Assembly (NCBI GenBank): GCA_017625535.1
Contig: JAGAKR010000017.1
Coordinates: 1 to 64,000 of the forward strand
DNA from: Bacteroidales bacterium
Lineage (GTDB): Bacteria; Bacteroidota; Bacteroidia; Bacteroidales; UBA932
Length of the DNA: 64,000 bases
Direction: 5' to 3'
Shown: piece by piece, positions 2 through 61,202 of the stretch
How the letters are laid out: the number at the start of each line of letters is the position of its first letter
How positions within the stretch are numbered: position 1 is the first letter of the stretch
Notes under the pieces: generated by a model
Seen by the model: only the letters and a program-made list of their open reading frames with translations
Told to the model about the DNA's origin: nothing
The model's database searches: none
Translations under genes and position numbers: made by a program

Positions 2-541
2 AACCACAGCGCATACGAAATGGAGGGGGCTGCCCCACAGATAAATGCGGAGGAGGGTGAGGTGAAATACGGCACATTGGACAGCCTGCAGAGCCTTTAT
101 ACAAGAGAATTCTCTTTCAGGCGCACCTCAGCGGTAATGGTGGATGACAAGCTTTTCATAAGTCCGTTTGCGGAGAAATACTTCAGAGCAGAGGATTTTG
201 CCGGTCCGCGCAAATATCCGGTTGAGTTCCGCAACCCCAAAACCATAGAGTACACCGCTACCATCCATATTCCCGACGGCTATGAGGTTTATGATCTTCC
301 AAGGAAGAGCACCTGGCAGCAGCACCGCTGTGGGGCAAGTGCCACCATTCTGGCCAAAGCCCAGGGGGATATAGTGCAGTTCGGCCTTACGATAGAGTTG
401 GACAACGCCACAATCCCGCTGGAAGATTATCCGCAATTCCAGGAGTGGTGGCAGCAGATGTGCTCTCTGTTTGATGAGATGATAATCCTCCACAGGAAAG
501 GGGGCAAGTCGTTCACAGATACAGAGAAGATGACGGCGTAG
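2..541 (+). CDS. C-terminal part of a transglutaminase-like (DUF3857/DUF3858-type) protein, 5' end outside window
   Basis: The reading frame is open from the first bases of the window, so the gene starts upstream. The visible 180 residues resemble the C-terminal beta-rich domain (DUF3858 type) that follows DUF3857 and a transglutaminase-like core in Bacteroidota proteins: a short propeptide-like stretch, then a segment around IPDGYEVYDLPRKS and alternating strands. Such proteins are usually exported and their substrates are unknown. The catalytic core is not in the window, so activity cannot be judged. The gene is followed directly by a strong terminator. An internal ATG at 20 is in frame but probably not a start. 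The family assignment rests on the C-terminal pattern only. Confidence 0.6.
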   Translation, partial: NHSAYEMEGAAPQINAEEGEVKYGTLDSLQSLYTREFSFRRTSAVMVDDKLFISPFAEKYFRAEDFAGPRKYPVEFRNPKTIEYTATIHIPDGYEVYDLPRKSTWQQHRCGASATILAKAQGDIVQFGLTIELDNATIPLEDYPQFQEWWQQMCSLFDEMIILHRKGGKSFTDTEKMTA

Positions 542-559
542 CTGTATGGGGCAGGAGAG

Positions 560-600
560 ATCGGGATTATCTTTTGAGGGATAATTCCGATTTTTTTTTG
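560..600 (+). terminator. Rho-independent terminator
   Basis: A 12-bp stem (560-571 with 580-591, one G-U pair) and an 8-nt loop are followed by nine T residues. It closes the transglutaminase-like gene and separates it from the suf operon. Confidence 0.85.
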
Positions 601-630
601 TTATATAAAGTGATAAGTTTGTTATTTTTG
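597..630 (+). promoter_or_regulatory. Bacteroidota-type promoter of sufS
   Basis: TATTTTTG at 623-630 matches the TAnnTTTG -7 box. A TTTG at 597-600 lies 22 nt upstream as a possible -33 element, slightly wide for the usual 19-21. Start of transcription would fall around 637. No palindrome like the one at the sufB promoter is seen. Confidence 0.5.
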
Positions 631-658
631 CGTGTTTTAGAGGTTTGATGTGTACAGT

Positions 659-1921
659 ATGAATACAATAGAGGAGATAAGGAGTCAGTTTCCGGCGCTG
701 CAGCAGCTGGTGTACGGCAAGCAGCTGGTGTATCTGGATAATGGGGCCACATCGCAGAAGCCGCAGTGTGTGATTGATCTTGTTGAGAGGATGCACACCG
801 GGGCGAATGCAAATGTGCACCGTGCAATGCACAAGCTCAGCGATGATGCCACTGCCCTGTATGAGGGGGCCCGCGAGAGGGTGAGGCAGTTCATAAATGC
901 TCCGGCCAGGGAGAACATCATTTTTACTTCGGGTACTACAGCTTCCATAAATCTGGTTGCAAGCAGTTTCTGCCGCAAGTTTGTGGGGGAGGGAGATGTT
1001 GTGCTGGTATCCGGGGATTCACATCATTCCAATATTGTTCCGTGGCAGTTGGCCTGCCAGGCTTGTGGGGCTGAGGTGAAGGCTATTCCTGTGTTGGAGG
1101 ACGGCAGGCTGGATATGGAGGCTTATAGGAGAATGCTGTCGGGAAGAGTGAAGATTGTGGCAGTTGAGCATATTTCCAATGTGCTGGGAATTGTGAATCC
1201 GGTTGGGGAGATTATTGCTCTGGCGCACGCACAGGGGATTCCGGTGCTGGTTGACGGTGCGCAGGGGATTGTGCACGCCAAGGTGGATGTGCAGGAGATG
1301 GATTGTGATTTTTATGCTTTTTCGGGGCATAAGATTTATGCTGCAACAGGTTCGGGTGTGCTGTATGGCAGGCAGGAGTTGTTGGAGGCTATGCCACCTT
1401 ATATGGGTGGCGGCGATATGGTGGATACCGTTACTTTTGAGCGTACTACATACGCTCCGCTTCCGCTAAAGTTTGAGGCGGGAACCCCTAATTTCATTGC
1501 TCAGGCTTCGCTGGCTCCGGCTCTGGAGTTTGCTGCCAGGTTGCGTGAGGGGGAGATTGCCGGTGTGGTTGAGGAGCAGGAGCGTGCTATAATTGAGTAT
1601 TTGAAGGGGGCTTTGACCGGGATTGAGGGGTGCAGGATTTATGGTTTGCCTGAGGAGGCTTCCGGAGTGGCGTTGGGTGAGCCGGGGAGCAAGATTCCTC
1701 TTTTCTCGTTCAATATAGAGAGGTGTTTCCCTTCAGATCTGGCGCAGCTGCTGGACAAGATGGGTGTGGCTGTGCGCACAGGGCTTATGTGCTGTGAGCC
1801 GCTGATGACCCGCTTTGGAGTTACCAGTATGGTGAGGGCTTCGTTCTTGCCGTACAATACCCTGCAGGAGGCGGAGTATTTTGTGGCAAGCCTGCAGAGG
1901 GCAGTGAGGATGCTCCGATAG
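659..1921 (+). CDS. sufS: Cysteine desulfurase SufS
   Basis: PLP-dependent group II cysteine desulfurase that releases sulfur from L-cysteine and passes it to SufE for Fe-S cluster assembly. The N-terminal motif YLDNGATSQKP is typical. The PLP-binding lysine is Lys225 in SGHKIYAATGSG. The active-site loop reads RTGLMCCEPLM, whereas family members usually have RxGxHCAxP, so the histidine is replaced by Met and the following Ala by a second Cys (Cys378 and Cys379). Length is about 420 residues, normal for SufS. The ATG at 659 is preferred to an in-frame GTG at 650, which would add three residues but has an AGAGG seven bases upstream. It is the first gene of sufS-sufE-sufT-folK-glyS. Confidence 0.93.
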   Translation: MNTIEEIRSQFPALQQLVYGKQLVYLDNGATSQKPQCVIDLVERMHTGANANVHRAMHKLSDDATALYEGARERVRQFINAPARENIIFTSGTTASINLVASSFCRKFVGEGDVVLVSGDSHHSNIVPWQLACQACGAEVKAIPVLEDGRLDMEAYRRMLSGRVKIVAVEHISNVLGIVNPVGEIIALAHAQGIPVLVDGAQGIVHAKVDVQEMDCDFYAFSGHKIYAATGSGVLYGRQELLEAMPPYMGGGDMVDTVTFERTTYAPLPLKFEAGTPNFIAQASLAPALEFAARLREGEIAGVVEEQERAIIEYLKGALTGIEGCRIYGLPEEASGVALGEPGSKIPLFSFNIERCFPSDLAQLLDKMGVAVRTGLMCCEPLMTRFGVTSMVRASFLPYNTLQEAEYFVASLQRAVRMLR

Positions 1922-2697: not shown

Positions 2698-3228
2698 ATG
2701 TACAGAGTTTATCTTCTTCTGGGGAGCAATATGGGGGACAGGCAGGCAATGCTTGATGCAGCCAACCTGGAACTTATTGATGCCCTTCTTCCCGATTATC
2801 TTGAGGTGGCTGCGCTTGGGGATGCAGTGAATACATCCGCAGTGATGGAAACAGAGCCTTGGGGGTTTGACACTCCAGTGGAGCCTTTCCTGAACCAGAG
2901 TTTCTGCTGCCTTACGGAGATGGAACCCAATCAGGTGCTGGAGCAGTGCCAGAGAATTGAGACAGAACTGGGAAGGGAGCGTACAGGGGCACAGTTTGAT
3001 GCCCAGGGGAAGAGGATTTACCGGAGCAGGGTTATTGATATAGACATTCTGGCGGTTGAAAGAGAGACTGCTGGGGGGTGGGAGTCTGTGGAAGTTGCTA
3101 CAGCGGACCTTACGGTTCCTCATCCGCAGTTGCAGAGCAGGGATTTTGCCCGCAAGCTTTATGAGGAGCTGAAAGGGGTGAAGAAGGCTGCAGAGAAATC
3201 TGTCGGGAAGAAAAAATTTAAAAAATGA
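2698..3228 (+). CDS. folK: 2-amino-4-hydroxy-6-hydroxymethyldihydropteridine pyrophosphokinase
   Basis: HPPK transfers pyrophosphate from ATP to 6-hydroxymethyl-7,8-dihydropterin in folate synthesis. Recognisable parts are the N-terminal LLLGSNMGDR, FLNQSFCCLTEM, the catalytic segment RSRVIDIDIL with its paired metal-binding aspartates, and VPHPQLQSRDF near the C terminus. The protein has 176 residues, a little longer than E. coli FolK, with a basic lysine-rich tail. The ATG at 2698 is preferred to an upstream in-frame start because the protein then opens with the first beta strand. It lies 11 nt after sufT and 7 nt before glyS. Confidence 0.93.
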   Translation: MYRVYLLLGSNMGDRQAMLDAANLELIDALLPDYLEVAALGDAVNTSAVMETEPWGFDTPVEPFLNQSFCCLTEMEPNQVLEQCQRIETELGRERTGAQFDAQGKRIYRSRVIDIDILAVERETAGGWESVEVATADLTVPHPQLQSRDFARKLYEELKGVKKAAEKSVGKKKFKK

Positions 3229-4866: not shown

Positions 4867-5859
4867 CTATTTCTTCTCCTTTGAATACTGTTCTGCTGTT
4901 TTAAGGAACTGTACCCTCTCAAATGATGCCGGGTCTGCAATGTTGCCGTAGTTGAGCATGCCGCAGAAATCAGATACTTTGTTGAAACCTTTGGATTTCA
5001 TGAACTCTTTAAGTTCATTGTTGAAATCTGCAACCACAAAAGGACCCTGTTTGTACAAGACACTGCAAAGCTGCACCGTCTTCGCTCCGGCAAGGAGGAG
5101 TTTTATTCCCGACGAAGGGTCATATACACCTGTAGATGCACTCAGGTCGAACTGACGCAGCTGAGATGAAAGGATTGCAGTCCAACGGAGTTCCTTCAGG
5201 TACTCTGTCTTGCTCGAGAATGGGTTTGCCGGGGTAATTTTCATGCTTTTGAGTGATATGTCGGGAGTAAAGAAACGGTTGAACAATACTGCACCTTTTG
5301 CTCCGTGTCCCTGCAGGCCATTTACAAAGTTCCCTATGTTGGTGAAGTTGTCACTTATCTTTACAGCAACGGGAATCTTCAATTCTTTGGTTACCTGGTT
5401 CACTATATTCCAGTATCCGCTCTCTATCTCTGTGCTGTTGCTTTCCCTGTTCATAGGCAGTGAGTAGATGTTGAGTTCCAGTGCATCTGCTCCGGCTTTT
5501 TCTATCTCCTTTGCAAAATCTGTCCAGCTGCTGAGGGAGAAGCAGTTTATGCTGGCAATTACCGGTATGCCGCTCTCCTTTTTTGCATCCTTTATGAGTT
5601 TTACATAATTGCCTACAGAGTAATCTGTAACATATCTTTTAAGGAAATCCAGACTCTCAGGGGAATCTGCTCCAACGCTCTCCAGAAAACCTATTTCGTT
5701 GCTTATCTGCTCTTCAAAAAGAGATTTAAGTACAATTGCACCGGCACCACTGCGGGCCAATGCCACTATTTTCTCAAGGTCTGCCGTGTAACCGCTGCTG
5801 GCAGCAATGAATGGGGACTTAAGCTCCAATCCCAAGTAATTTACAGAAGTGTCAATCAT
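4867..5859 (-). CDS. Dihydroorotate dehydrogenase-like flavoprotein
   Basis: A 330-residue TIM-barrel protein related to class 1 dihydroorotate dehydrogenases. The N terminus (NYLGLELKSPFIAASSGYTADLE) and the segment VAVKISDNFTNIGNFVNGLQGHGAKGAVLFNRF match the FMN-binding barrel. The orotate-binding stretch, which in true PyrD reads LNxSCPN or similar, is LNIYSLPMN here. The enzyme is therefore probably not a genuine pyrimidine-pathway dehydrogenase, and such proteins are common extra copies in Bacteroidales. The gene stands alone, converging on the glyS operon and divergent from the beta-barrel gene. The substrate is unknown. Confidence 0.75.
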   Translation of the reverse strand: MIDTSVNYLGLELKSPFIAASSGYTADLEKIVALARSGAGAIVLKSLFEEQISNEIGFLESVGADSPESLDFLKRYVTDYSVGNYVKLIKDAKKESGIPVIASINCFSLSSWTDFAKEIEKAGADALELNIYSLPMNRESNSTEIESGYWNIVNQVTKELKIPVAVKISDNFTNIGNFVNGLQGHGAKGAVLFNRFFTPDISLKSMKITPANPFSSKTEYLKELRWTAILSSQLRQFDLSASTGVYDPSSGIKLLLAGAKTVQLCSVLYKQGPFVVADFNNELKEFMKSKGFNKVSDFCGMLNYGNIADPASFERVQFLKTAEQYSKEKK

Positions 5860-6637: not shown

Positions 6638-6645
6638 CTAATTCG

Positions 6646-6719
6646 TCGGGATACTGCGACTCGAACGCAGGACCCCCTGCTCCCAAAGCAGGTGCGCTAA
6701 CCAACTGCGCCACATCCCG
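6646..6719 (-). tRNA. tRNA-Pro (anticodon TGG)
   Basis: Reading the minus strand gives a full cloverleaf. The acceptor stem CGGGATG pairs with TATCCCG (one G-U), followed by discriminator A. The anticodon arm is CCTGC-TTTGGGA-GCAGG with anticodon TGG, and the T arm contains GTTCGAGTC. The CCA end is not encoded. The downstream bidirectional hairpin would terminate it. Confidence 0.96.
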
Positions 6720-6927: not shown

Positions 6928-9900
6928 TTATAGTCCCAAATCTTTCAAGGTTCTTGGGGCAGGAGTTTTAGGGAGTGGTTTTCTCTCTTTCAACTGCTCC
7001 ATAATTACCTCAATGGCTTTGTTCAACTGCTCGTCAATGCCCTGCTGCTCTTTTATAGGGTCATTGTCTATGAGGATGTCAGGGTCTACGCCGTGGTTCT
7101 CAACAATCCACTGGCCGGTTTTGGCGTCATAGTTGGTGAAGAACGGTACGCGTACGTCTGTGCCGTCAATGTAAGGGAGTGAACCGCTGATACCTACAAT
7201 ACCTCCCCAGGTGCGGGTTCCTATAACTGTGCCAAGGTTGTTGGCCTTGAAGCTCCAAGGGAACAGGTCTCCGTCAGAGGCAGAGTATTTGTTTATCAAC
7301 AATACCTTAGGGCCGTGGTGGGTTGCATCAGGAATGGTACCGGTACGGCTTGAGTTGCGGTACATTGTCATACGGTAAGTCTTGCGCAGCAGACGCTCAA
7401 TGATCATAGGCGAAACATTTCCACCGCCATTCTCACGGTCATCTATGATAAGGGCCTCTTTGTCAAGCTGAGGGTAGAAGTAGCGTGCAAACTCATTCAG
7501 TCCGTCAACATTCATATCTGGAATGTAGATGTATCCTACACGGCCGCCGGTAGCCTGCTCAACTTTCTTGATGTTGTTCTGTACCCAGTTGTAGTGCTCA
7601 AGCGGATACTCGTTGTCTATAGGTTTTACAACTATCTGGCGAGCACCGTCCTCGGAAGGTTTGTCGTTTACAGAAAGTTCTGTAAGTACGTTTGCCTTGC
7701 CAATGAGCAGTTTGTAGATGTTGTCTACGGTATTGGTAGGGATGCCGTCAATTGCAACAATGTAATTCCCCTCAACAACATTAAGGCCAGGCTCAGTAAG
7801 AGGAGACCTCAGTTTTGCACTATAAGGTGCTCCAGGCATAATCTTGCCAATCTTGTAGTAGCCGCTCTTGTCTTTCTTAAGTTCTGCGCCAAGCAGACCC
7901 ATAGGGATGCGCTCTGCCTTAGGCATCTCACCAGGATTCACATATGCGTGTCCGCAGGCAACCTCAGAAATCATCTCTCCAATTACATAGTTGAGATCCA
8001 GACGGGTCTTCACATAAGGGAGAAGCACTGCATATTTCTCTTTAATGGCTTTCCAGTCTATGCCGTGCATGTTCTCAAGATAGAAACCGTCCCTGAATGC
8101 ACGCCAAACCTCATCATAAATCTGTGCCCACTCAGCAGTATAATCTACAGGAGCCACAAGGTTCTTGAATGAAACTTTATCTCTGAAGGCAACTTTAGGT
8201 GCAGGGAAATCACAAACAAACAGATCACGTCCTTTTGCAAACAAAGCCTTCTTTGCACCAGGGTTGTAACTTACCATAGAGGCACCCTCAGCAGCTTTTT
8301 CATCCTTTCCGGTTGCAAAATCAAACACTTTGGTGTCTCTTCCCGACGAATACCAGAGTTTTTTGCCGTCACATACAATATTGCCGAAATAGCCTGTACC
8401 CACAGGGATCCTTACAATTCTGCCGAAAATGCCGTCTGCATCAATTACAGTTGCAGAAGGGGCTGCAGCGGCATCTTTCTTCTCAGGGGCACCCTTTGGA
8501 GCAGGGGCTTTGCCGTCTTCAGGAAGAAGAGGGGAAGCTGTACCTTTTGCAAGCATAGCCATATACAGGCCGTTCATATTGTTGTATGTGTGGTTCCATT
8601 CCAACTGGCCGTATGTAGGGTTGAAATCGCGGGCAGAGGTAAAGATGATATATTTGCCGTCTGTGCTGAATACAGGAGAAGATGAACTGTACCATTTCTC
8701 TGTTACGGCAATCTCCTTGCCGGTCTTCAGATTGTACACATAAACAACGCTCATCTCATTCTCTGCAGATTTTGTGTAGGCAATCCAGTTGCCGCAAGGC
8801 GAGAAGTTCACGCTTCTGAACTCACCTGCAGGATTCTCCATTACAGTACGTTTTGCCTTGGTTGCAACATCAACCTCAACAAGACGGTTCTTGCGGTCAG
8901 AATAATATATTTTCTTGCTGTCAGGGCTCCACTGTACCCTGCGGATATAAGAGTCGTTGTTCTTTGTCAACTGTACAGGTTTCCCACCCTCTGCAGGCTG
9001 AAGGTAAACCTCGGTCTCACCTGTTGCATCACCAATATAGGCAATGTATTTGCCGTCCGGGCTCCATACTGCACTGCGGTCGTTTGAACCTGGGGTGCGG
9101 GTGATGTTCCTTACAACTCCCTCACCTACAGGAACGGTGAATACCTCACCACGTGCGGTAACAGCAACCCTGCTGCCGTCTGAAGGGATGCTTGCAGATC
9201 TTGCGCTTGCCTTGCCGCTCACATCCTTCATCTCCTGACGTCCGTAGATGTTGTCTGATGTAAGTTCAATTGAAATCTTCTGGCTCTGGCGGCTCTTAGG
9301 GTCAAATTTGTAAAGGTAACCGCCTTTCTCAAATACTATAATCTCTCCGTTTGTAGAAGGGAACTTTATATCATAATCTGTAAAGTTGGTAACCTTCTCT
9401 GTCTGTTTTGTACGGGTGTTGTATACAAACAGGTTCATTGTCATATCCCTGTCGGAGATGAAGAAGATCTCTTCTCCAATCCACATTGGGAAAATGTCCT
9501 GTGCCACGTTGTTGGTTACATTCTCAACCTTTTTGGCTGCAGGATCATAAACCCAGATGTCGTCTGCCATACCTCCACGGTAGTACTTCCAGGTACGGAA
9601 CTCACGCATAACGCGGTTGTAGGCAAGTTTTTTGCCGTCGGGAGAATAACTGCAGAAACCGCCCTCTGGGAGAGGAATCTGCTCAGGCATACCGCCATCA
9701 GGTGAAATTGTCCAAAGTTTGCCTGGGAATCCGTCACCGGTACGGTTACGGTAAACTATCTTTTTGCCGTCTTTGCTCCACGCCATTACAATGTTGTTGG
9801 GGCCCATACGGTCTCCCAAATCATCGCGGCTGTTGGTTGATGAATATGTAAGCCTTACTGGCTCGCCTCCCTGTGCAGGGATAAGGTAAACCTCACGGTT

Positions 9901-10149
9901 GCCGTCATACTCTCCGGTAAAGGCAATGGTTTTGCTGTCGGGAGAAAAACGGGCAAACATCTCATATCCAATGTGGGATGTGAGGCGGGTTGCCTGGCCG
10001 CCGGCCAAAGGTGCCTTATAAAGGTCTCCTCCATAAGAGAACACAATCTGATTGCCGTCTGTAGACGGGAATCTGAGGAGTCTTGCCTCATCCGCCTGTG
10101 CTGTAAAAGCGGCTGCTGCAAGAGCTAAGGTAAACAGTAATCTTTTCAT
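6928..10149 (-). CDS. Exported Tricorn-type S41 protease
   Basis: A 1073-residue Tricorn-homologue protease. It has a signal peptide (about residues 1-19, ending TAQA). Two beta-propeller regions follow, built of PD40/WD40-like repeats such as SPDSKTIAFTGEYDGNREVYL and SPDGKYIAYIGDATGETEVYL. After a low-complexity Ala/Pro/Lys linker (about 545-570) come a Tricorn C1-like domain, a PDZ-like segment (IMPGAPYSAKLRSPLTEPGLNVVEGNYIVAIDG) and a C-terminal S41 peptidase domain. The nucleophile is Ser958 in KYSASDGDLFPWSF. Tricorn proteins degrade oligopeptides; the signal peptide places this one in the periplasm. It is a single-gene unit ending at its own terminator. The natural substrate is unknown. 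Confidence 0.9.
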   Translation of the reverse strand: MKRLLFTLALAAAAFTAQADEARLLRFPSTDGNQIVFSYGGDLYKAPLAGGQATRLTSHIGYEMFARFSPDSKTIAFTGEYDGNREVYLIPAQGGEPVRLTYSSTNSRDDLGDRMGPNNIVMAWSKDGKKIVYRNRTGDGFPGKLWTISPDGGMPEQIPLPEGGFCSYSPDGKKLAYNRVMREFRTWKYYRGGMADDIWVYDPAAKKVENVTNNVAQDIFPMWIGEEIFFISDRDMTMNLFVYNTRTKQTEKVTNFTDYDIKFPSTNGEIIVFEKGGYLYKFDPKSRQSQKISIELTSDNIYGRQEMKDVSGKASARSASIPSDGSRVAVTARGEVFTVPVGEGVVRNITRTPGSNDRSAVWSPDGKYIAYIGDATGETEVYLQPAEGGKPVQLTKNNDSYIRRVQWSPDSKKIYYSDRKNRLVEVDVATKAKRTVMENPAGEFRSVNFSPCGNWIAYTKSAENEMSVVYVYNLKTGKEIAVTEKWYSSSSPVFSTDGKYIIFTSARDFNPTYGQLEWNHTYNNMNGLYMAMLAKGTASPLLPEDGKAPAPKGAPEKKDAAAAPSATVIDADGIFGRIVRIPVGTGYFGNIVCDGKKLWYSSGRDTKVFDFATGKDEKAAEGASMVSYNPGAKKALFAKGRDLFVCDFPAPKVAFRDKVSFKNLVAPVDYTAEWAQIYDEVWRAFRDGFYLENMHGIDWKAIKEKYAVLLPYVKTRLDLNYVIGEMISEVACGHAYVNPGEMPKAERIPMGLLGAELKKDKSGYYKIGKIMPGAPYSAKLRSPLTEPGLNVVEGNYIVAIDGIPTNTVDNIYKLLIGKANVLTELSVNDKPSEDGARQIVVKPIDNEYPLEHYNWVQNNIKKVEQATGGRVGYIYIPDMNVDGLNEFARYFYPQLDKEALIIDDRENGGGNVSPMIIERLLRKTYRMTMYRNSSRTGTIPDATHHGPKVLLINKYSASDGDLFPWSFKANNLGTVIGTRTWGGIVGISGSLPYIDGTDVRVPFFTNYDAKTGQWIVENHGVDPDILIDNDPIKEQQGIDEQLNKAIEVIMEQLKERKPLPKTPAPRTLKDLGL

Positions 10150-15183: not shown

Positions 15184-15218
15184 TGTAAAGGTGTTGGACT
15201 TGTTAAAAATTTGTCGGG

Positions 15219-15698
15219 ATGAAAAGGATTATAATTGTTTTTGGATTGCTTCTGTTTTGGTGCACCGCTGCAATGGGGCAGAGCAAAGAGTTTATGGAGT
15301 TGTACGGGAAGGCCGGGGAGGCCCTTGAAAAGGGGGAGGAGGGGATTACAACTGTAGAGATTTCCGGAAAGATGTTGCAGGAACTTGTCCCTTCAAAGGC
15401 AAAGGAGAGGTTCAGCATTGTGAACAGGATAGAGATTATAAGGCAGATAAAGTTTGCAGAGTGGGCCCCAAAAGGGATTTTTGAGGAGATGGAGAGACTG
15501 GCGGCGGACAAGAGGGTTTATGAACAGATGTCACTTATGAATGTGGAGGGGCAGAGGGTTGCGGTTTACAAGGCTCCGTACGGGAAACTGAAGAGTGAGT
15601 ATCTTATCCTCATTTCTAAAGGTGGGGCGTGTTTGGTGTGTGATATTCTGGGGAATGTGAGCATGAAGGATATTCTGGATCTGCTGTACGGAAAATAG
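15219..15698 (+). CDS. DUF4252 exported protein
   Basis: A 159-residue protein with signal peptide MKRIIIVFGLLLFWCTAAMG. The pattern fits DUF4252, small exported Bacteroidota proteins often found beside ECF sigma/anti-sigma genes: KMLQELVPSKAKERFSIVNRIEIIRQI, a central charged helix, and ILISKGGACLVCDILGNVSMKDILDLL at the C terminus. Function of the family is unknown. It closes the four-gene cassette sigma factor, membrane protein, barrel, DUF4252, and is followed by a strong terminator. The heptamer GTCGGGA overlaps its start codon. Confidence 0.75.
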   Translation: MKRIIIVFGLLLFWCTAAMGQSKEFMELYGKAGEALEKGEEGITTVEISGKMLQELVPSKAKERFSIVNRIEIIRQIKFAEWAPKGIFEEMERLAADKRVYEQMSLMNVEGQRVAVYKAPYGKLKSEYLILISKGGACLVCDILGNVSMKDILDLLYGK

Positions 15699-33904: not shown

Positions 33905-33978
33905 GCGTTGGTCTGATGGATGGAACTGTCGGGAGGAAGGCGGTTCATGTGCGCCAGATGGATGTGAAAATTTTCTTG

Positions 33979-47660: not shown

Positions 47661-50600
47661 ATGGCATTTGCTCATTTACACGTACATACATACTATTCAA
47701 TTCTGGATGGACAGGCCAGCATAAAGTCCCATTTCAAGAAAGCAGCGGAGGACAACCAGCCGGCACTGGCCATTACAGACCACGGCAATATGTTTGGTGT
47801 GAAGGAGTTCCTTAAGGTGGCAAAGGATTTTCCGGATGTGAAGCCCATAATAGGGTGTGAGGTTTATGTTAACCGCGATGGACGTTTCAACAAGAGAGGT
47901 AAGGAAGACCAAGGTGCATACCACCTCATTCTGCTGGCCAAGAACCTGGCGGGATATTACAATCTGGTGAAGATAGTTTCCACAGGATGGACAGAGGGTT
48001 TCTATTACAAGCCTAAAGTGGACCGTGAGATTCTGGAGAAGTACCACGAGAACCTCATCTGCTGTTCAGCCTGTCTTGGTGGTGAGATTCCAAAATTCAT
48101 AAATACCGGCAACCTTAAGGAGGCGGAAGAGACAGCCCTCTGGTACAAGAACCTTTTTGGGGAGGATTATTACCTTGAGGTACAACTGCACCGCACAGAG
48201 ATACCGGGGATGACTACAGAGGTGGCAGACCTGCAGGAGATAGCCAATGCAGAGATTTTCCGGATGGGAGAGCGCCTGGGCATTAAGGTGGTTGCCACAA
48301 ACGATGCCCATTTTGCCCGCAAGGAGGATGGCCCTGCGCACGACCGCCTGATATGCCTTACCACCAATGCCAATTATGATGACCCCAACCGTATGAGATA
48401 CACCCAGCAGGAGTATCTCAAAACCGAGGAGGAGATGAGGGCCCTGTTTCCGGAGCATCCTGAGGTTATAGAGAATACCCTTGAAATTGTGGAGAAGGTG
48501 GAGCGCTACAAGATAGACAGAGACCACGTTCTGCCCGTTTTCCCAATTCCGGAGGAGTTTCCCGACAGCAATGAATACCTCCGCCACCTGGTATACAAAG
48601 GTGCGGAACGCAAATACAAGACCATTACCGATGAGTGCCGCGAGCGAATAGACTTTGAGTTGGCCACCATAAAGAAGATGGGATTCCCAGATTACTTCCT
48701 TATTGTGCAGGACTTCATTGCGGCAGCCCGCAGCATAGGTGTATGGGTTGGTCCGGGACGTGGCTCGGCAGCCGGGTCTGTGGTTGCATACTGTTTGGGA
48801 ATCACCAATCTGGACCCTATAAAATATGACCTTCTGTTTGAGCGTTTCCTTAATCCGGACCGTATCTCAATGCCCGATATTGACGTGGACTTTGATGATG
48901 ACGGACGTGGCAAGGTGCTGCAGTATGTGGAGGAGAAATATGGAAAAGACCACGTATCCCACGTGGTAACCTTTGGTACAATGGCCACCAAGAGTGCCAT
49001 AAAGGATGTGGCCAGAATCCAGCAGGTACCCCTTCCGGAGAGTGACCGCCTTGCCAAACTTGTTCCCGACAGTTTCCCTGAGCAGGTTGAGAAATATACA
49101 GATGAGAACGGAGAGGTGAAGGAGAAGACCAAGAAGGTGAAGGTAACTGTGGAGAACTGTGTGAAACTGGTTCCGGAGATGAAGGAGGCATACGAAAACT
49201 CAGACATTCCGGGTGTTAAGGATACCCTTGAATATGCCCAGAAACTTGAGGGAACAGTCAGGAACACCGGTGTACATGCCTGTGCCATAATAATTGGACG
49301 AGACAACCTTACAGAGCATATCCCTATCTGTATTGCAAAAGACAAGGAGACCGGGGAGGATATGTGGGTATCGCAGTATGAGGGCTCATTCATAGAGGAT
49401 GTGGGAATGCTCAAGATGGACTTCCTGGGGTTGCGTACCCTCTCCATCCTTAAAGAGGCGGTTTCCAATGTGAAGAAATCCAAAGGGATAGATATAGACA
49501 TAGAGGCAATACCAATAGACGACAAGAAGACTTTTGAACTCTTCGGCCGTGGAGATACAGTGGCAGTGTTCCAGTTTGAGTCTCCGGGAATGCAGAAATG
49601 GCTCAGAGAGTTGCAGCCAAGCCGTTTTGAGGACCTCATTGCAATGAATGCCCTCTACAGGCCGGGCCCTATGGATTATATCCCTGATTTTGTAGCCCGC
49701 AAGAAGGGTGAGCAGGCAATAGAATATGACCTCCCTGAAATGGAGAGTATCCTGCAGGATACATACGGGGTAACAGTATATCAGGAGCAGGTGATGCTTC
49801 TTTCACAGAAACTGGCAAACTTTACAAAAGGCCAGGCTGACGGACTCCGTAAAGCTATGGGTAAGAAACTCATAGACAAAATGATGGAGTTGAAGGTGAA
49901 GTTTATGGAGGGAGGTGCCGCAAACGGACATCCGCAGGATACACTGGAGAAGATCTGGAAAGACTGGACCGCCTTTGCCCAATATGCCTTCAACAAATCC
50001 CACGCAACCTGTTATGCCTGGGTGGCATACCAGACAGGATATATGAAGGCCCACTATCCGGCAGAATTTATGGCTGCCAACTTGAGCAAGAACCTCAACA
50101 ACATAGAGGAGATTACCAAACTGATGGATGAGTGCAAGAGGATTGGCAGCAATGTCCTTGGACCTGATATAAACGAGAGTGAGCGTACTTTCTCAGTAAA
50201 CAAGGCTGGTGACATCCGTTTTGGAATGGGAGGTGTAAAAGGTGTTGGAGGTGCCATAGTGGATTCAATAATTGCCTGCAGGGGTGACAAGCCTTTCACC
50301 GGTGTGTTCGATTTCATAGAGAGGTCTTCGGCCAGCTGCAATATAAACAGGAAAACCATAGAGTCATTGGCATATGCCGGAGCATTTGATTCATTCCCGG
50401 AGATACGCAGGGAGCAGTTCTTTGCAGAGAACACCAAGGGGGATGTCTTCATTGAGGCGTTGTGCAGATATGGGCAGAAACTGCAGAGTGATTCCCTGAG
50501 TGGAGGAAACTCCTTGTTCGGCGATGATGATGCGGCATTCAAGCCAACCCCTCCTGAGATTCCTGCTCCAAGGGACTACAACAAACTGGAATTCCTGAAA

Positions 50601-51357: not shown

Positions 51358-52413
51358 ATGGACAACAAGGAACCTAAAAGGACACAGATAAGTGAAATGG
51401 GGAGGGTTGCCCTCCTTAAGAGGCTTTTTGAGGGTACGCAGTACAACAATTCTGCAGCACAGGTGGTGCAGGGACGTATTCCCGACAAAGCGGGCCGTAC
51501 AAAGGATGTGAACAACTTCCTTACAGTGCAGAAGACAATGCTGGAGGGGATAGATTTTGACCTTACCTATACACCGCTCAAGCATCTGGGCTACAAGGCG
51601 GTACTGCTGGCTCTGGGCGGTATTTATGCAAAATGCTTCAACCCTTGTTCCCTGATGTTCTCATTGGGCCTTTCTGCAAGATTCTGTGTGGAGGATATTG
51701 AGGAGTTCTGGAAAGGGGTACTTGCAGCCTGCGATGAGCATAAGATAGAGCAACTTTCACTGGATTTGGGGGCTTCAATGACAGGATTCAACATTGCAAT
51801 AACAGCCTGCGGAGTGCAGAGCGCAAAAACTGCGGCAACTGTACCTGCGGTAGACAATACCTGCCTGTTGTGCCTTACCGGAAATGTGGGGGCAGCCTAT
51901 ATGGGGCTGCATGTATTGGAGAGGGAGAAGATTGCGTTCAACAAAATTCCGGCAGACCGCGTGGCAGAGTATGTACAGCCCGATTTGAGCAAGTACAAAT
52001 ACATTCTCAGCCAATATCTGAGCCCCGAGATAAATCCCAAGACAGTGGAGCAGTTCAAGGAGGCAAAACTTTTCCCTGCTTGTGGCTATTTCATAACCAA
52101 CGGCCTTGCGGCTGCAGTAAAACAATTGTGCGATGAGCATAATGTGGGGGCAAAGATTTATTTGGGCAAGATTCCTATTGCATCCCAAACTTTTTCTATG
52201 GCAGAAGAGTTGAATATGGATGCAATAACTGCGGCCCTGAACGGAGGGGATGACTACAAGTTCCTTTTTGCAGTTCCGGTGCAGGAGCACGAGCGCTTCC
52301 ACAAAGAGTTCCCTAACGTTGACATTATAGGGCATCTGTGCAGACCGGAGGCAGGGGCAGTGCTTGTTACCCCGGAAGGGGCGGAGATAACCTTGCGGGC
52401 CCAGGGATATTAA
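51358..52413 (+). CDS. ThiL/AIR-synthase-family protein with degenerate active site
   Basis: A 351-residue protein aligning along its length with thiamine-monophosphate kinase (ThiL), for example in DFDLTYTPLKHLGYKAVL, GNVGAAYMGLHVLEREK and ALNGGDDYKFLFAVPV. The parts of ThiL that bind Mg-ATP are changed. The N-terminal GxGDDAAV is absent (QVVQGRIPDKAG stands there), the SDI(A/Y)AM segment reads GGIYAK, and DISDGL reads FITNGL. Only the Asp of the GGDTT segment is kept (SLDLGAS). The protein is probably not a normal kinase; it could bind a ligand or have another reaction. It sits 46 nt after dnaE and before sufB. Confidence 0.75.
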   Translation: MDNKEPKRTQISEMGRVALLKRLFEGTQYNNSAAQVVQGRIPDKAGRTKDVNNFLTVQKTMLEGIDFDLTYTPLKHLGYKAVLLALGGIYAKCFNPCSLMFSLGLSARFCVEDIEEFWKGVLAACDEHKIEQLSLDLGASMTGFNIAITACGVQSAKTAATVPAVDNTCLLCLTGNVGAAYMGLHVLEREKIAFNKIPADRVAEYVQPDLSKYKYILSQYLSPEINPKTVEQFKEAKLFPACGYFITNGLAAAVKQLCDEHNVGAKIYLGKIPIASQTFSMAEELNMDAITAALNGGDDYKFLFAVPVQEHERFHKEFPNVDIIGHLCRPEAGAVLVTPEGAEITLRAQGY

Positions 52414-55362: not shown

Positions 55363-56364
55363 ATGGAGAACAATTACATTTATATTCCCGACAAATCCCT
55401 GCAGGATGAGGTGGAGTTCAGATGCCGTGTGCCCCTTGAGAACACAGACCAGGTGTTTGTGGTTGATGGAGAGGGTGCGCATAGGGGGCTTCATCTGGGC
55501 AAAGGGGAGGTTATGCCCCGTATGCTTCAGATAATACAGGTGAGGAGCAGACAGGTTGAGGAGGATCTTTCTTACTCTACCGATTATGTGTTGGAGGAGG
55601 GGGCCCAGGCCAAGGTGCTTTTGTGCTCGCATACCCTTTCAATGCTGGATTTTGTAACACACGAAGATGTTAACATAAAGTTGGGGGAGAGGGCAGTGCT
55701 GGATATGGTTGTTATGCAGAACGAACACAACAAATCAAGGCACAGCAGTGCATTCAAAGTTGAGATGGCAGAGGGTGCAGTGCTGAACCTCAATATCATA
55801 ACACTTCATGGCGGTGGAATTTCCAATACAGTTGAGGTTGCCCTTAACGGAAAGGGGGGCGAATGCAGCCTAAATGGCCTCTATCTGGCAGACGGCACTC
55901 AGAGGGTTTCCACAAATGTGAACATTTTCCACAATGTGCCGGAGTGCCACAGTTCGCAGTTGTTCAAGGGTATCCTTGACGGGGAGTCAAAAACCACCTT
56001 CAGCGGACGCATTTATGTGGCCAAGGATGCGCAGAAGACAGAGGCATACCAGGCAAACAACAATCTGCTGGCATCCAGAACGGCAAAGGCTTATACACAG
56101 CCGCATCTTGAGATTTATGCGGATGATGTGAAATGTTCGCACGGGGCAACTGTAGGAAGCCTCAATGAGGATGAACTCTTCTATATGCGTTCGCGCGGAA
56201 TAGAGAAGGGCGAGGCAAAACTCCTGCAGCAGCAGGCATTTGCATATGCAGTACTTGAGAAGGTATCAAATGAGGCATTGAGGGAGAGACTTCACTCTAT
56301 GGTGGAGAGCAGGCTCAGGGGTGAGTTTTCTGAGTGTGCAAACTGCAGCAAACATTGTTGCTGA
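55363..56364 (+). CDS. sufD: Fe-S assembly protein SufD
   Basis: A 333-residue SufD, shorter than the roughly 420 of E. coli, which is normal in Bacteroidota. The core beta-helix is clear in HNVPECHSSQLFKGILDGESKTTFSGRIYVAKDAQKTEAYQANNNLLAS and in PHLEIYADDVKCSHGATVGSLNEDELFYMRSRGI, which has the conserved Cys and His. It forms the heteromer with SufB and SufC. The extreme C terminus ECANCSKHCC has four cysteines in ten residues, which could hold a metal or cluster; E. coli SufD ends differently. It is the last gene of the operon. Confidence 0.93.
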   Translation: MENNYIYIPDKSLQDEVEFRCRVPLENTDQVFVVDGEGAHRGLHLGKGEVMPRMLQIIQVRSRQVEEDLSYSTDYVLEEGAQAKVLLCSHTLSMLDFVTHEDVNIKLGERAVLDMVVMQNEHNKSRHSSAFKVEMAEGAVLNLNIITLHGGGISNTVEVALNGKGGECSLNGLYLADGTQRVSTNVNIFHNVPECHSSQLFKGILDGESKTTFSGRIYVAKDAQKTEAYQANNNLLASRTAKAYTQPHLEIYADDVKCSHGATVGSLNEDELFYMRSRGIEKGEAKLLQQQAFAYAVLEKVSNEALRERLHSMVESRLRGEFSECANCSKHCC

Positions 56365-56526: not shown

Positions 56527-59058
56527 ATGAGTATCAAGACCTACACTTATGAAGAGGCCTTACAGGCGAGTATCAACTTCTTTAAAGGGGATGAGTTGGC
56601 GGCGTCTGTATGGATCAACAAGTATGCAATGAAGGATTCATACGGAAACCTGTATGAGAAATCACCTGATGACATGCACCGCAGACTTGCACGCGAGTTT
56701 GCCAGAATAGAGAACAAATATCCTAACCCTATGAGTGAGGATGAGATTTTTGAGTTGTTGAGGGATTTCAAATACATCATACCTCAGGGCGGGCCTATGA
56801 CCGGTATAGGCAACAGTTACCAGATTGCATCGCTTTCAAACTGCTTTGTGGTAGGCCACGACAAGCCGGCTGATTCATATGGCGGAATAATGAAGATAGA
56901 TGAGGAGCAGGTACAGCTTATGAAGCGCCGTGGCGGTGTAGGACACGACCTTTCACACATCCGTCCTCAGGGCAGCGCAGTGCTCAACAGCGCCCTTACC
57001 TCTACAGGTGTGGTTCCATTTATGGAGAGATACTCAAATTCAACCAGAGAGGTGGCACAGGACGGCCGCAGGGGAGCCCTTATGCTTTCAATCTCAATCA
57101 AGCATCCCGACAGCGAAAAGTTCATTGATGCCAAGATGGAGCAGGGCAAGGTTACAGGAGCAAACGTATCTGTAAAGATAGATGACGAGTTTATGAGGGC
57201 AGCCCTTTCGGGAGAGCAGTATGAGCAGAAATACCCTGTAGATGCTGCAGAGCCAAAGGTTTCCAAGATGGTGAATGCACAGAATATCTGGAAGAAGATT
57301 GTGCACAATGCCTGGAAATCTGCAGAGCCTGGTGTATTGTTCTGGGATACAGTGTTGAGGGAGTCTGTTGCAGACTGCTATGCAGACCTTGGATACAGGA
57401 CAGTAAGTACAAACCCTTGCGGAGAAATTCCTTTGTGCCCATACGACTCTTGCCGTCTTATTGCCCTTAACCTCTACTCATACGTAAAGAATCCTTTCAC
57501 CGCAGAGGCTGAGTTTGATATGGCATTGTTCAAAGAGCACTCTGGAAAGGCTATGAGGCTTATGGACGACCTCATTGACCTTGAAATGGAGAAGATTGAG
57601 GCTATCCTTGGCAAAATCAAATCAGATCCGGAGACTGAAGATGTGAAGAGGACAGAACTTGATTTGTGGGAGAAGATTAAGAAAAAATCACTCGGCGGCC
57701 GCAGAACAGGACTTGGAATTACAGCAGAGGGTGATATGCTTGCTGCACTTGGAATGAGATATGGCTCCGAGAAGGCAATTGACTTTGCCGTTGAGGTTCA
57801 GCAGAACCTTGCTGTTGAGGCATACAGGTCATCTGTGAATATGGCAGCAGAGAGGGGTGCGTTCCCTATTTACGATACAAAGAGGGAGGAGCACAACCCT
57901 ATGATTGACAGAATCCGCACCGTAGATCCTGAACTATATGCCCTTATGGCAAAAGTGGGAAGAAGGAACATCTCGCTCCTTACAATTGCCCCTACAGGTA
58001 CAACTTCCCTTATGACCCAGACCACATCGGGAATAGAGCCTGTATTCCTTCCATTCTACATAAGGAGAAGGAAAGTTAACCCTAACGACAAGAATGCGGT
58101 AATTACCTTCAAGGATGATGTTGGGGATTGCTGGGAGGAGTATTATGTATTCCACCACAAATTCCTTACCTGGTGTGAGGTTAACGGAATCCCAGCAGAG
58201 GATGTGAAGAAGATGAGTGTTAAGGATGTGGAGACTCTTGTAGAGAAATCACCTTACCACAGGGCAACTTCTGCAGACATTGACTGGGTTGCAAAAGTGA
58301 AGATGCAGGGAAGCATCCAGAAATGGGTAGACCACTCAATAAGCGTTACCGTAAACCTTCCTAACTCGGTTACAGAGGAGTTGGTTGCAAATGTGTACAA
58401 AACTGCTTGGGAGGTTGGCTGTAAAGGTGTTACCGTTTACAGGGACGGTTCAAGGGCAGGTGTGCTGGTATCTGCAAAAGAGGACAAGAAGGAGACAGTT
58501 TCACTTAAACCTAAAGAGAGACCAAAATCACTTGAGGCAGACGTTATCCGCTTCATGAACGGCAAGGAGAAATGGATTGCACTTGTAGGCAAATTGAACG
58601 GTGCCCCATATGAGATTTTTACCGGTCTTGTTGATGAGGACAGCCGAAACATCCCTAAATCTGTAGAGAACGGATTCATTGTGAAGGAGAAGGATGTGAA
58701 GACCGGCCTTACCCGCTACGATTTCCATTTTGTAGACAAATACGGATATACAAACATTGTGGGCGGTATCTCGCATATGTTCAACAAAGAGTACTGGAAC
58801 TATGCAAAACTCATCTCAGGTGTGTTGCGCCACGGAATGCCTATTGTAGATGTCCTTAACCTCATCAACGGCCTTTCATTGGACAGCGAGGCAATCAACA
58901 CCTGGAAAAACGGTGTGGAGCGCAGTTTGAAACGTTATATCCCAGATGGTACCAAGGACGATACCGGAAAGAAATGCTCTAAGTGCAACTCAAACAATCT
59001 GGTATACCAGGAGGGGTGTCTGGTTTGTATGAACTGCGGTTATTCTAAATGCGGTTGA
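56527..59058 (+). CDS. nrdJ: Adenosylcobalamin-dependent ribonucleotide reductase (class II)
   Basis: An 843-residue B12-dependent reductase making deoxyribonucleotides without oxygen or iron-tyrosyl radical. The active-site cysteines are in IASLSNCFVVG and the finger loop NPCGEIPLCPYDSCRLIALNLYSYV; the phosphate-binding loop is LTIAPTGTTSLMTQTTSGIEP. The C-terminal TSCPD-like domain starts around 660. The tail is a zinc ribbon (KKCSKCNSNNLVYQEGCLVCMNCGYSKCG), usual in long NrdJ proteins. The ATG at 56527 (MSIKTYTYEEALQASINFF) is preferred to an earlier frame start inside the terminator. No cobalamin riboswitch is recognisable upstream. ispE follows 4 nt later. Confidence 0.94.
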   Translation: MSIKTYTYEEALQASINFFKGDELAASVWINKYAMKDSYGNLYEKSPDDMHRRLAREFARIENKYPNPMSEDEIFELLRDFKYIIPQGGPMTGIGNSYQIASLSNCFVVGHDKPADSYGGIMKIDEEQVQLMKRRGGVGHDLSHIRPQGSAVLNSALTSTGVVPFMERYSNSTREVAQDGRRGALMLSISIKHPDSEKFIDAKMEQGKVTGANVSVKIDDEFMRAALSGEQYEQKYPVDAAEPKVSKMVNAQNIWKKIVHNAWKSAEPGVLFWDTVLRESVADCYADLGYRTVSTNPCGEIPLCPYDSCRLIALNLYSYVKNPFTAEAEFDMALFKEHSGKAMRLMDDLIDLEMEKIEAILGKIKSDPETEDVKRTELDLWEKIKKKSLGGRRTGLGITAEGDMLAALGMRYGSEKAIDFAVEVQQNLAVEAYRSSVNMAAERGAFPIYDTKREEHNPMIDRIRTVDPELYALMAKVGRRNISLLTIAPTGTTSLMTQTTSGIEPVFLPFYIRRRKVNPNDKNAVITFKDDVGDCWEEYYVFHHKFLTWCEVNGIPAEDVKKMSVKDVETLVEKSPYHRATSADIDWVAKVKMQGSIQKWVDHSISVTVNLPNSVTEELVANVYKTAWEVGCKGVTVYRDGSRAGVLVSAKEDKKETVSLKPKERPKSLEADVIRFMNGKEKWIALVGKLNGAPYEIFTGLVDEDSRNIPKSVENGFIVKEKDVKTGLTRYDFHFVDKYGYTNIVGGISHMFNKEYWNYAKLISGVLRHGMPIVDVLNLINGLSLDSEAINTWKNGVERSLKRYIPDGTKDDTGKKCSKCNSNNLVYQEGCLVCMNCGYSKCG

Positions 59059-59062: not shown

Positions 59063-59884
59063 ATGATTCTATATCCGAATGCAAAAATAAACATAGGATT
59101 GAATGTTCTGGAAAAGAGGGAGGATGGGTTTCACAACCTTGAAACCCTCTTTTACCCTGTAAAAGGGGAGGACAGGGCTGCAGACGGCTCTGCACCTGAA
59201 CATCCGCTTGATGTGCTGGAGATTGTTGAATCTTCTTCGCTTCAGATGCACCAGTATGGGATAGAGTACCCTGGAGACCCTATGGACAATCTTTGTGTAA
59301 AGGCTTACAACGCTTTGAAGGCAGATTTTGATATTCCGCCTGTAGCCATCCACCTTTATAAGAAGATTCCGGTAGGGGCCGGTTTGGGAGGTGGCTCTGC
59401 AGATGCGGCCTTTACCCTTAAGGGGCTCAACGAGATGTTCTCGCTGGGGTTGTCTGACGAGTCTATGGCCCGCTATGCAGCAACACTTGGAAGCGATTGT
59501 GCATTCTTCATATATAACAGGCCTATGATTGGTACAGGCAGGGGTGAGATTCTGGAGCCTGCGGAGATTTATCCTATGGACAAATATGAAATAAGGCTGG
59601 TATTTCCCCCTTATTTTGTCTCAACAGCAGCTGCATATGGTGGAATAGTGCCACGCAACAAAAGGGCTCTTGCCGGCGAGGTTTTTGATTCACGCCCGCT
59701 TGTGGAAATGCTCAGGGAGCCGGTTGAAACCTGGAAAGGGTGTGTGGTTAATGATTTTGAAACAACAGTCTTTGCAAAGATACCGCAGTTGGCCCCGTAC
59801 AAGGATGAACTGTATGCCCAGGGGGCGGTTTATGCCTCTATGAGCGGCAGCGGATCTGCGTTTTTCGGGATTTTTGAGAAATAG
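59063..59884 (+). CDS. ispE: 4-(cytidine 5'-diphospho)-2-C-methyl-D-erythritol kinase
   Basis: A 273-residue GHMP kinase of the MEP isoprenoid pathway, phosphorylating CDP-ME. Family motifs: YPNAKINIGLNVLEKREDGFHNLETLF at the N terminus, the ATP-binding IPVGAGLGGGSADAAFTLKGLNEMF, LGSDCAFFI with the catalytic Asp, and the C-terminal MSGSGSAFFGIFEK. It starts 4 nt after nrdJ, so both are probably in one transcript despite unrelated roles. A terminator follows. Confidence 0.95.
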   Translation: MILYPNAKINIGLNVLEKREDGFHNLETLFYPVKGEDRAADGSAPEHPLDVLEIVESSSLQMHQYGIEYPGDPMDNLCVKAYNALKADFDIPPVAIHLYKKIPVGAGLGGGSADAAFTLKGLNEMFSLGLSDESMARYAATLGSDCAFFIYNRPMIGTGRGEILEPAEIYPMDKYEIRLVFPPYFVSTAAAYGGIVPRNKRALAGEVFDSRPLVEMLREPVETWKGCVVNDFETTVFAKIPQLAPYKDELYAQGAVYASMSGSGSAFFGIFEK

Positions 59885-59894
59885 TATGCCAACT

Positions 59895-59938
59895 AAAAAG
59901 GGGCTCCCGCTACTACCTACGGGGACCCCTTTTTTGTA
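59895..59938. terminator. Terminator between ispE and the LolC/E-like gene
   Basis: AAAAAGGGG-CTCCCG pairs with CGGGGA-CCCCTTTTTT with small bulges, followed by T-runs on the plus strand and A-runs at its left side, so it can work in both directions. Confidence 0.75.
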
Positions 59939-59990
59939 CTAAAACCTAAACCTACATCTTAAAGATGCAGTAATGTTCAAAAACGTTGCA

Positions 59991-61202
59991 TCATTTTTTT
60001 AAAAAATTTCCAATCGGGAGCCAGGATATTATGAATCCTGTAATTGAGACTCCGGCAACAGTTATTATAATGTCTGCAATCTGAATTTCTACAGGGTATG
60101 CAGACACAATATAATTACCTGGAATAGAGATTATTCCTGTCTGTTGCTGTATGATGGCAAGTATAATGCCGGCAGTTGTTCCCAATATGCATCCTGCAAA
60201 GGAGATGAGAAAACCGTGCAGGTGGAAAATTTTGTTTACGAGTTCTTTTGTGGCCCCCAGACTCAGGAATGTGTGTATGTCTTCCCTTTTGTCTGTAATG
60301 AGCATACTCAGTGAACTGAATATGTTTACAGATATTATTGCAATTACAAAGAACAGTATGAGATATACGGCAAACTTCTCTGCCTTCATCATCCTGTACA
60401 GTGTGGCATTCTGCTGCTGTTTGTCCTTTACCTGGCATTGCGGGAACATCTCCTGCAGTTGCCCGGCAATTGCGCCGGAATTTCCTTTTGCGTTTTCCTC
60501 ATCAAGATATATCTCCAGAGTGGTGTATTCGTTCTCCCCACTGCCGGTAAGTTCCCTTACGGCATCCATTCCGGCATAGAGGATCCCCTCTGTGGTCTCT
60601 GCATCCATCCGCAGTACAGCGCTCGGGTAGAATGAGGCGGTGTTGAGGGATTCCATAGGGTTGGTGATTGATATGTTTCCACCCTTTTTGGGGAAGTATA
60701 TTTCAAGAGGGGTGAGGAACCTCACTCTCAATCCAAGGCTGCGGGCAAGTTGTTGGCTGGGGAGGGCATATTTTACCTCACCCATAGCGGTTTTTGCCTC
60801 ACCCTCCACAATGTTTCCGGCAATGTGGCTGTGGTTCAGGTATCCCTCCTCTATCCCCCTTATTGTGGCTATGGATTCCCTGTTGCCATATCTGACAAAT
60901 ACAGTCTCCTCCTGTACGGGGGCGGCAGATGAGATGCCCTCAATATCCAGAATATGGGAAATTTTGTCGGGAAGGGCTTCAAAAGTTTTCCCCTTTGTGG
61001 GGGTTATAACAAAATCGGCTTTGTAACCCTCATAAATCTGCTTTATGGAGTTATCAAAGCCGTTGTATACAGAAAGAATAAGGATAAGGGCCATGCTTCC
61101 TATGGCTATGCCTGCTGCACTTATTATGGAGATAATGTTTATTACATTATGGCTTTTTTTTGCAAACAGGTATCTGAGGGCTATATGAAGCGGAGTCCCC
61201 AT
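59991..61202 (-). CDS. LolC/LolE-like lipoprotein-export permease
   Basis: A 403-residue ABC permease of the LolC/E (FtsX/MacB-related) family, which extracts lipoproteins from the inner membrane. One N-terminal helix (IISIISAAGIAIGSMALILILSVYNGFDNSI), a periplasmic domain, then three C-terminal helices (AVYLILFFVIAIISVNIFSSLSMLITDKREDIHTFLSLGAT, LISFAGCILGTTAGIILAII, IADIIITVAGVSITGFIISWL). The ITDKREDIHTFLSLGA segment is the conserved coupling region. The LolD ATPase is not in the window. It lies 4 nt after rbfA, in the operon tyrS-rbfA-lolE-like. Confidence 0.88.
   Translation of the reverse strand: MGTPLHIALRYLFAKKSHNVINIISIISAAGIAIGSMALILILSVYNGFDNSIKQIYEGYKADFVITPTKGKTFEALPDKISHILDIEGISSAAPVQEETVFVRYGNRESIATIRGIEEGYLNHSHIAGNIVEGEAKTAMGEVKYALPSQQLARSLGLRVRFLTPLEIYFPKKGGNISITNPMESLNTASFYPSAVLRMDAETTEGILYAGMDAVRELTGSGENEYTTLEIYLDEENAKGNSGAIAGQLQEMFPQCQVKDKQQQNATLYRMMKAEKFAVYLILFFVIAIISVNIFSSLSMLITDKREDIHTFLSLGATKELVNKIFHLHGFLISFAGCILGTTAGIILAIIQQQTGIISIPGNYIVSAYPVEIQIADIIITVAGVSITGFIISWLPIGNFLKK

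Follow-up and report, generated by a model that had tools for sequence, protein, structure and literature searches.

Clade-specific words resembling DNA uptake signals in genomes of an uncultured Bacteroidales genus

Background

To our knowledge, genome-wide DNA uptake words are known from two families of a single phylum, both of which use type IV pili. Here, we describe a heptamer, TCCCGAC (reverse complement, GTCGGGA), that recurs throughout a 64,000-nucleotide stretch of a Bacteroidales bacterium (GenBank assembly GCA_017625535.1, contig JAGAKR010000017.1, positions 1 to 64,000; hereafter the window) and throughout its genome. Taken with a related word in congeners, it probably belongs to a set of clade-specific words (dialects) that resemble uptake signals and would serve genome-wide self-recognition in a lineage where a search for T2SSF, a type IV pilus family, gave no match.

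Uptake signal sequences (USS) of the Pasteurellaceae are 9-mers whose over-representation is 68-175X in seven genomes and 23X in the eighth, that of H. ducreyi, in fold values calculated from base composition, a simpler model than those used here; they have AT-rich flanking segments, originate by substitution, and fall into two subclade types (Redfield 2006, PMC1626085). The Neisseriaceae carry eight dialects of the DNA uptake sequence (DUS), which track phylogeny (Frye 2013, PMC3630211), and a minor pilin has been predicted as the USS receptor (2025, PMC12616744). In Riemerella anatipestifer, competence requires ComEC, DprA, ComF, RecA, and four proteins of unknown function, and the DUF5689 surface-protein family is implicated in it (PMC8459023). 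This species is competent, belongs to the Bacteroidota, and is without pilus homologues; pilus-free competence therefore exists in the phylum. A literature search, in a library without most subscription papers or any bioRxiv preprints, returned no uptake word reported for Bacteroidota; the letters TCCCGAC turned up as a token in a single paper on another subject.

Results

The first-pass annotation of the window listed 34 copies of TCCCGAC/GTCGGGA, and all 34 were recovered, 17 per strand (Table 1); 33 lay exactly where they had been placed and one lay 10 bases away (28533 instead of 28543). Its background figures were too high: GC content is 45.9% rather than about 47%, and 100 dinucleotide shuffles of the window gave 3.5 copies (standard deviation, 2.0; maximum, 8) instead of 6 to 7. 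An order-2 Markov model predicted 1.7 copies (z-score 24.9, the highest of the window heptamers). TCCGACC and TCGACCC, the sole other words with identical dinucleotides, had 0 copies each, and single-base neighbours of the word stood close to or below expectation, with the exception of TCCCGAT (14 versus 3.2). With proteins and codon usage fixed, 33 copies were seen versus 2.1 expected (stop-to-stop frames, in which slight overlap is possible).

The source genome (G000; 2.18 Mb, 31 contigs, 88.6% complete), to which the closest named relatives are metagenome-derived Bacteroidales genomes, several of ruminant-gut origin, holds 1016 copies on both strands (525 + 491). Genomes were read as samples, 413 kb of G000 and 420 kb of a same-genus genome in one contig (G034). 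TCCCGAC was likewise the top heptamer of the G000 sample, with 224 copies where the order-2 model predicts 12.6 and the order-3 model 19.2; it thus stood 17.7-fold over the former, and the normal count that would have undone the first-pass claim was not found. Neighbours were again close to or below expectation (some at about half, e.g., TCCTGAC) except TCCCGAT (105 versus 24). Inverted pairs as terminators were rejected, as opposite-strand pairs within 60 bp were few (7 among 329 G000 sites, TCCCGAT included); G034 had 16 among 282 sites.

The pattern YTCCCGACR fits 30 of the 34 window copies, as annotated, and 27 have T three bases upstream of the core. Among the 224 sampled G000 copies, T is the favoured base at -3 (0.71) and a pyrimidine (Y) at -1 (0.84), and both bases that follow the core tend to be purines. 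The core of G034 is TCCCGACAG, with 133 copies versus 0.8 (order 2) or 1.5 (order 3) expected, an enrichment of 163-fold or 86-fold, respectively; tolerated variants are TCGCGACAG (44 versus 0.2), TCCCGATAG (36 versus 0.6), TCACGACAG (26 versus 0.4), and TCCCGACGG (23 versus 0.5). T is preferred in G034 from about -9 to -3 (maximum, 0.76 at -6), and A (0.83) and G (0.93) are favoured directly downstream. Inspected by eye, the 34 intergenic G034 sites present a T run, TCCCGACAG, and then often ATTAT or TTTAT. The extended form is approximately T-rich tract-Y-TCCCGAC-R-R, with an AT-rich flank that is clear in G034, weaker in G000, and placed unlike the Pasteurellaceae pattern. G034 also has a palindrome, CTGTCGCGACAG, made of two overlapping back-to-back cores and found between genes in similar AT-rich surroundings (Table 1).

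Genes were called with a simple dicodon script and are rough (350 genes in the G000 sample). Codon-pair or amino-acid-pair bias with no role at the DNA level could be read from the window, where 28 of 34 copies sit in Pro-Asp (20) or Ser-Gly (8) frames; two further copies are in Val-Gly frames and one in a Ser-Arg frame, one overlaps a start codon, and two lie outside called genes, including that at the tRNA-Pro edge (6645). The first-pass statement that such bias is insufficient is borne out. In the G000 sample, 203 coding copies were seen versus 14.3 with proteins and codon usage fixed (14-fold; maximum of 40 synonymous shuffles, 25), with an excess in every strand and frame. After T, 54% of Pro-Asp pairs are written CCC-GAC, but after A, C, or G the share is 5-9%; TCG-GGA makes up 37% of the Ser-Gly pairs that follow G and 2-15% of those that follow other bases. 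Once Pro-Asp and Ser-Gly frames are masked, 29 coding copies are left versus 5.1 expected, besides 20 intergenic ones. Intergenic copies (20/224 in G000, 34/170 in G034) set against the non-coding share of DNA (8.1% and 11.2%) give a density about equal to coding density or exceeding it, and coding copies of the G034 core number 103 versus 1.1 with proteins and codon usage fixed. Selection acts on the DNA word itself rather than on codons for TCCCGAC; the preceding-base test and the synonymous shuffles refute the codon-pair or dipeptide explanation of this word, to which we give next to no credence.

We set the window against ten loci. For two of them, located in another region of a relative's genome, no alignment resulted. 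The five nearest loci kept 9/12, 3/3, 8/13, 5/5, and 6/13 copies (sum, 31/46), at an all-heptamer conservation of 0.29-0.35; the 46 comparisons are not independent because the five loci share ancestry. Three more distant loci kept 2/4, 1/4, and 1/4 (background, 0.17-0.19). Where relatives hold extra copies, the window differs at one to four bases and no gap occurs, and both gains and losses came about by one to several substitutions in printed alignments of eight loci, all gap-free. Copies therefore arise by substitution, not insertion, and turn over yet persist above background conservation. A mobile repeat was rejected, the flanks of copies being unrelated and the sites originating by substitution.

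Across 39 genomes of the genus, TCCCGAC spans 14 to 1550 copies. Ten genomes are rich in it (804-1550 copies) and hold at most 218 of TCRGCGAT; ten others are rich in TCRGCGAT (711-1183) and hold at most 153 of TCCCGAC. No genome is rich in both. Intermediate genomes include G001 (567 TCCCGAC, and also 854 TCNCGAYAG) and G014 (435 TCRGCGAT). A midpoint-rooted DnaE tree with 37 genomes (of the 39, one had no match and one a fragment only) placed the ten TCRGCGAT genomes in one clade (support, 99/96) and TCCCGAC genomes on both sides of the root. TCCCGAC, TCVCGAYAG, and CTCRGCGAT have a common scheme of TC, a spacer of 1-2 bases, and CGAY; these related words track phylogeny and are clade-specific dialects. 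In 247 genomes of the order, with G000 representing the genus, TCNCGAYAG occurred 410 times in G000 versus 58 for the reversed control, a ratio of about 7, and ratios reached about 4 elsewhere; this comparison is not readable because the control is not composition-matched.

Other words were seen in other Bacteroidales. GGCCGAT/ATCGGCC occurred 155 times in 101 kb from five genomes (L067, L068, L071, L073, and L075), with 139 copies in open reading frames versus 21.9 in synonymous shuffles. Two more loci, L063 and L049, suggest additional words of this lineage-bound kind, each seen at a single locus: CACCTTC, with 39 copies in 16 kb (4.7-fold relative to codon shuffles), and TCCCGAT, with 16 copies in 23 kb (10-fold).

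The main rival is a Chi-like signal, read single-stranded by AddAB during repair and switching the enzyme from degradation to recombination. Chi words are likewise short (5-8 bases), non-palindromic, frequent, and lineage-variable, and a PDDEXK_1 nuclease, putatively AddB or AddA from its family and size (mostly open frames of ~930-1120 amino acids), occurs in 38 of the genus's 39 genomes; an enzyme for a Chi therefore probably exists. Orientation relative to replication was scored in G034 with replichores set by GC skew, omitting 5 of the 21 stretches, all past 1.75 Mb, where skew was mixed. No bias appeared, TCVCGAYAG counting 105 leading versus 109 lagging; for the bare heptamer, the G-rich strand gave 74 versus 55 (P = 0.11), and its G-rich control permutations were 63% leading, above the heptamer's own share. 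The same script, given the E. coli origin and terminus, returned 29 leading versus 10 lagging for E. coli Chi (P = 0.003). Enrichment under the same model is 18- to 163-fold in G000 and G034, far above that of E. coli Chi (2.6-fold in 200 kb), and both the T-rich flank and a change of word inside one genus would be unexpected for Chi. A recombination signal, offered as an alternative at first pass, is weakened; we retain it as a rival of low probability.

Alternatively, the word could be highly iterated through a mutational or DNA-modification process, e.g., a methyltransferase and its linked repair, as has been proposed for cyanobacterial HIP1. G000 is CpG-poor (observed/expected, 0.55) though the word contains CpG, palindromic ATCGCGAT is enriched in several congeners, and TCCTGAC, a possible deamination product, is short in G000 (24 versus 52). 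The other such product, TCCCAAC, is not clearly short (49 versus 60); the CpG-normal genome G010 (1.19) holds the highest copy number, orthologous sites are conserved above background, and T-rich flanks in G034 extend about 9 bases upstream, all of which make this process improbable. A binding site for a nucleoid, segregation, or regulatory protein, with which genome-wide spread and lack of strand bias agree, is equally improbable: there are ~1000 sites, mostly inside genes (203/224), with random-like spacing (coefficient of variation, 0.84-0.93) and no polarity, and the motifs known to serve segregation or the terminus have polarity or are confined to a region.

The reading as uptake-like dialects, which copy number, enrichment, strand balance in G034, the T-rich flank, origin by substitution, and the dialects themselves support, has competence genes to draw on. 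Of 41 genomes, 39 had the ComEC core, including 24 of the 25 that belong to the genus (G034 stood outside this set); DprA was found in 38 of the genus's 39 genomes. ComEC open frames span 357-575 amino acids in 24 genus members versus 691-713 in 9 of the 15 other-family genomes matched. DUF5689 was found in all ten TCRGCGAT-rich genomes, also in word-poor ones, and in 21 of 39 overall; it occurred in all 11 genomes with >400 TCRGCGAT and in 10 others, G010 not among them.

Several observations weigh against this reading. The type IV pilus family T2SSF had no match in 41 genomes, of which 25 belong to the genus (without G034), in a search whose control rings were positive in 13 of 14 cases and which did not cover the pilins themselves; any passage of DNA across the outer membrane apparently dispenses with a canonical type IV pilus. 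ComEC of G000 is 363 amino acids long and consists of the Competence domain alone (L098:15871-16962, minus strand). DUF5689 was matched in neither G000 nor G034 and in only 2 of 10 TCCCGAC-rich genomes, and was rejected as the receptor for lack of a match in the first two. No receptor was found. Word density against sampled homologues, a proxy for shared genes, rose in G000 and fell in G034, an inconsistent trend, and atypical genes as a proxy for foreign DNA gave no support: in both genomes, density was lowest in the quartile whose dicodon scores were the most typical. The literature search, run without the genus name as a term, returned no competence report for these uncultured bacteria.

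The words themselves add to these points. Of the 39 genomes, 19 have fewer than 700 copies of each word, and G010, with the highest TCCCGAC count, is enriched just 5.6-fold because its genome is not CpG-poor. TCRGCGAT is more degenerate than TCCCGAC and less strongly enriched (3.4- to 3.7-fold relative to codon shuffles, and 6.9- to 8.1-fold as CTCRGCGAT), and it is scarce between genes (4/103 and 5/95, at non-coding shares of 13% and 9%). Its enrichment is real and exceeds codon effects, though the codon-pair explanation partly holds for it.

Word-free stretches were also noted. One of 8.9 kb in G034 (L144:5745-14640) holds genes for a Schlafen helicase, two HNH nucleases, AAA_14/DUF4143, and WYL (10 of the 25 called genes of the locus were scanned) and is perhaps a defence or accessory island. 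rRNA as the cause of a 9.3-kb word-free gap on contig C2 was rejected, with no Rfam match in L090, which covers 7.3 kb of it.

Among the window copies, that at the tRNA-Pro edge may have its sequence dictated by the acceptor stem. The copies at 21378 and 28533 have similar surroundings in two SusD-like genes and thus may predate a duplication or have been copied from one gene to the other.

Table 1. Positions of TCCCGAC copies in the window (GTCGGGA on the forward strand is given as -) and of the palindrome in G034
Feature	Position	Strand	Context
TCCCGAC	271..277	+	Pro-Asp
TCCCGAC	1138..1144	-	Ser-Gly
TCCCGAC	3202..3208	-	Val-Gly
TCCCGAC	5107..5113	+	Ser-Gly
TCCCGAC	5260..5266	-	Pro-Asp
TCCCGAC	6645..6651	-	3' edge of tRNA-Pro
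TCCCGAC	8341..8347	+	Ser-Gly
TCCCGAC	9637..9643	-	Pro-Asp
TCCCGAC	9937..9943	-	Pro-Asp
TCCCGAC	11037..11043	+	Pro-Asp
TCCCGAC	11232..11238	-	Ser-Gly
TCCCGAC	15213..15219	-	Overlaps ATG of open reading frame at 15219
TCCCGAC	21378..21384	+	Pro-Asp, SusD-like gene
TCCCGAC	24166..24172	+	Pro-Asp, FecR-like gene
TCCCGAC	28533..28539	+	Pro-Asp, second SusD-like gene
TCCCGAC	31662..31668	-	Ser-Gly
TCCCGAC	32193..32199	+	Pro-Asp
TCCCGAC	33037..33043	+	Ser-Gly
TCCCGAC	33928..33934	-	Outside called genes
TCCCGAC	34601..34607	+	Pro-Asp
TCCCGAC	37512..37518	+	Ser-Gly
TCCCGAC	37611..37617	-	Pro-Asp
TCCCGAC	38256..38262	-	Pro-Asp
TCCCGAC	38421..38427	-	Pro-Asp
TCCCGAC	40269..40275	-	Ser-Gly, SecDF gene; other heptamer in relatives L009, L011, L079, L014, L053
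TCCCGAC	44808..44814	-	Ser-Arg
TCCCGAC	45438..45444	+	Val-Gly
TCCCGAC	45757..45763	-	Pro-Asp
TCCCGAC	48560..48566	+	Pro-Asp, dnaE
TCCCGAC	49064..49070	+	Pro-Asp, dnaE
TCCCGAC	51480..51486	+	Pro-Asp
TCCCGAC	55386..55392	+	Pro-Asp; inverted TCCCGAT 44 bp upstream
TCCCGAC	57105..57111	+	Pro-Asp, ribonucleotide reductase gene
TCCCGAC	60966..60972	-	Pro-Asp
CTGTCGCGACAG	L129:2465, L130:3002, L130:16131, L131:6709, L145:12641		G034

Discussion

Like the USS types Hin (AAGTGCGGT) and Apl (ACAAGCGGT), as described in PMC1626085, the words reported here reach several hundred to >1000 copies per ~2 Mb, with enrichment of the same order, AT-rich flanks, an origin by substitution, and two subclade-specific types. 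They differ from USS in word and phylum, in a T-rich tract mainly 5' of the core, in a second word that is weaker and scarce intergenically, and in that T2SSF was not found. With the DUS of Neisseriaceae, as presented in PMC3630211, they share several related words, a common core, and a phylogenetic distribution; here, copies are fewer than the thousands in Neisseria meningitidis and relatives, and no pilus or ComP-type receptor was found (pilins were not searched). Riemerella anatipestifer is likewise a member of the Bacteroidota without pilus homologues and with ComEC and DprA; it differs in that the main text of PMC8459023 has no match to "uptake sequence" and in that DUF5689 was not found in G000. 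The words match USS and DUS in anatomy and evolution and not in machinery, and we therefore term them uptake-like rather than file them as members of either class.

The likeness to uptake words proposed at first pass is thus upheld and strengthened, which supports the first-pass interpretation in part. We infer a receptor, an uptake step, and a drive. A surface or periplasmic protein of the genus would prefer word-bearing DNA, which would be imported via ComEC, protected by DprA, and then recombined. Each successful event would favour word-bearing alleles, and copies would consequently accumulate by point mutation where the protein code permits. A change in the recognising protein of one clade would have shifted the word to ~CTCRGCGAT, giving dialects that share TC-spacer-CGAY. 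We tentatively propose, with somewhat less than an even chance of being right, that the Bacteroidales evolved sequence-specific DNA uptake of their own, unconnected with type IV pili and served by a separate receptor and clade-specific dialects.

A pilus-free case with dialects would, if true, mean that the trait evolved again using another receptor, and it would point to homologous exchange being frequent among uncultured gut bacteria. Matching word dialect to protein variant would then provide a genomic handle on the outer-membrane DNA receptor of Bacteroidota. If GGCCGAT and CACCTTC in other Bacteroidales are of the same kind, self-tagging would be widespread in uncultured gut Bacteroidota.

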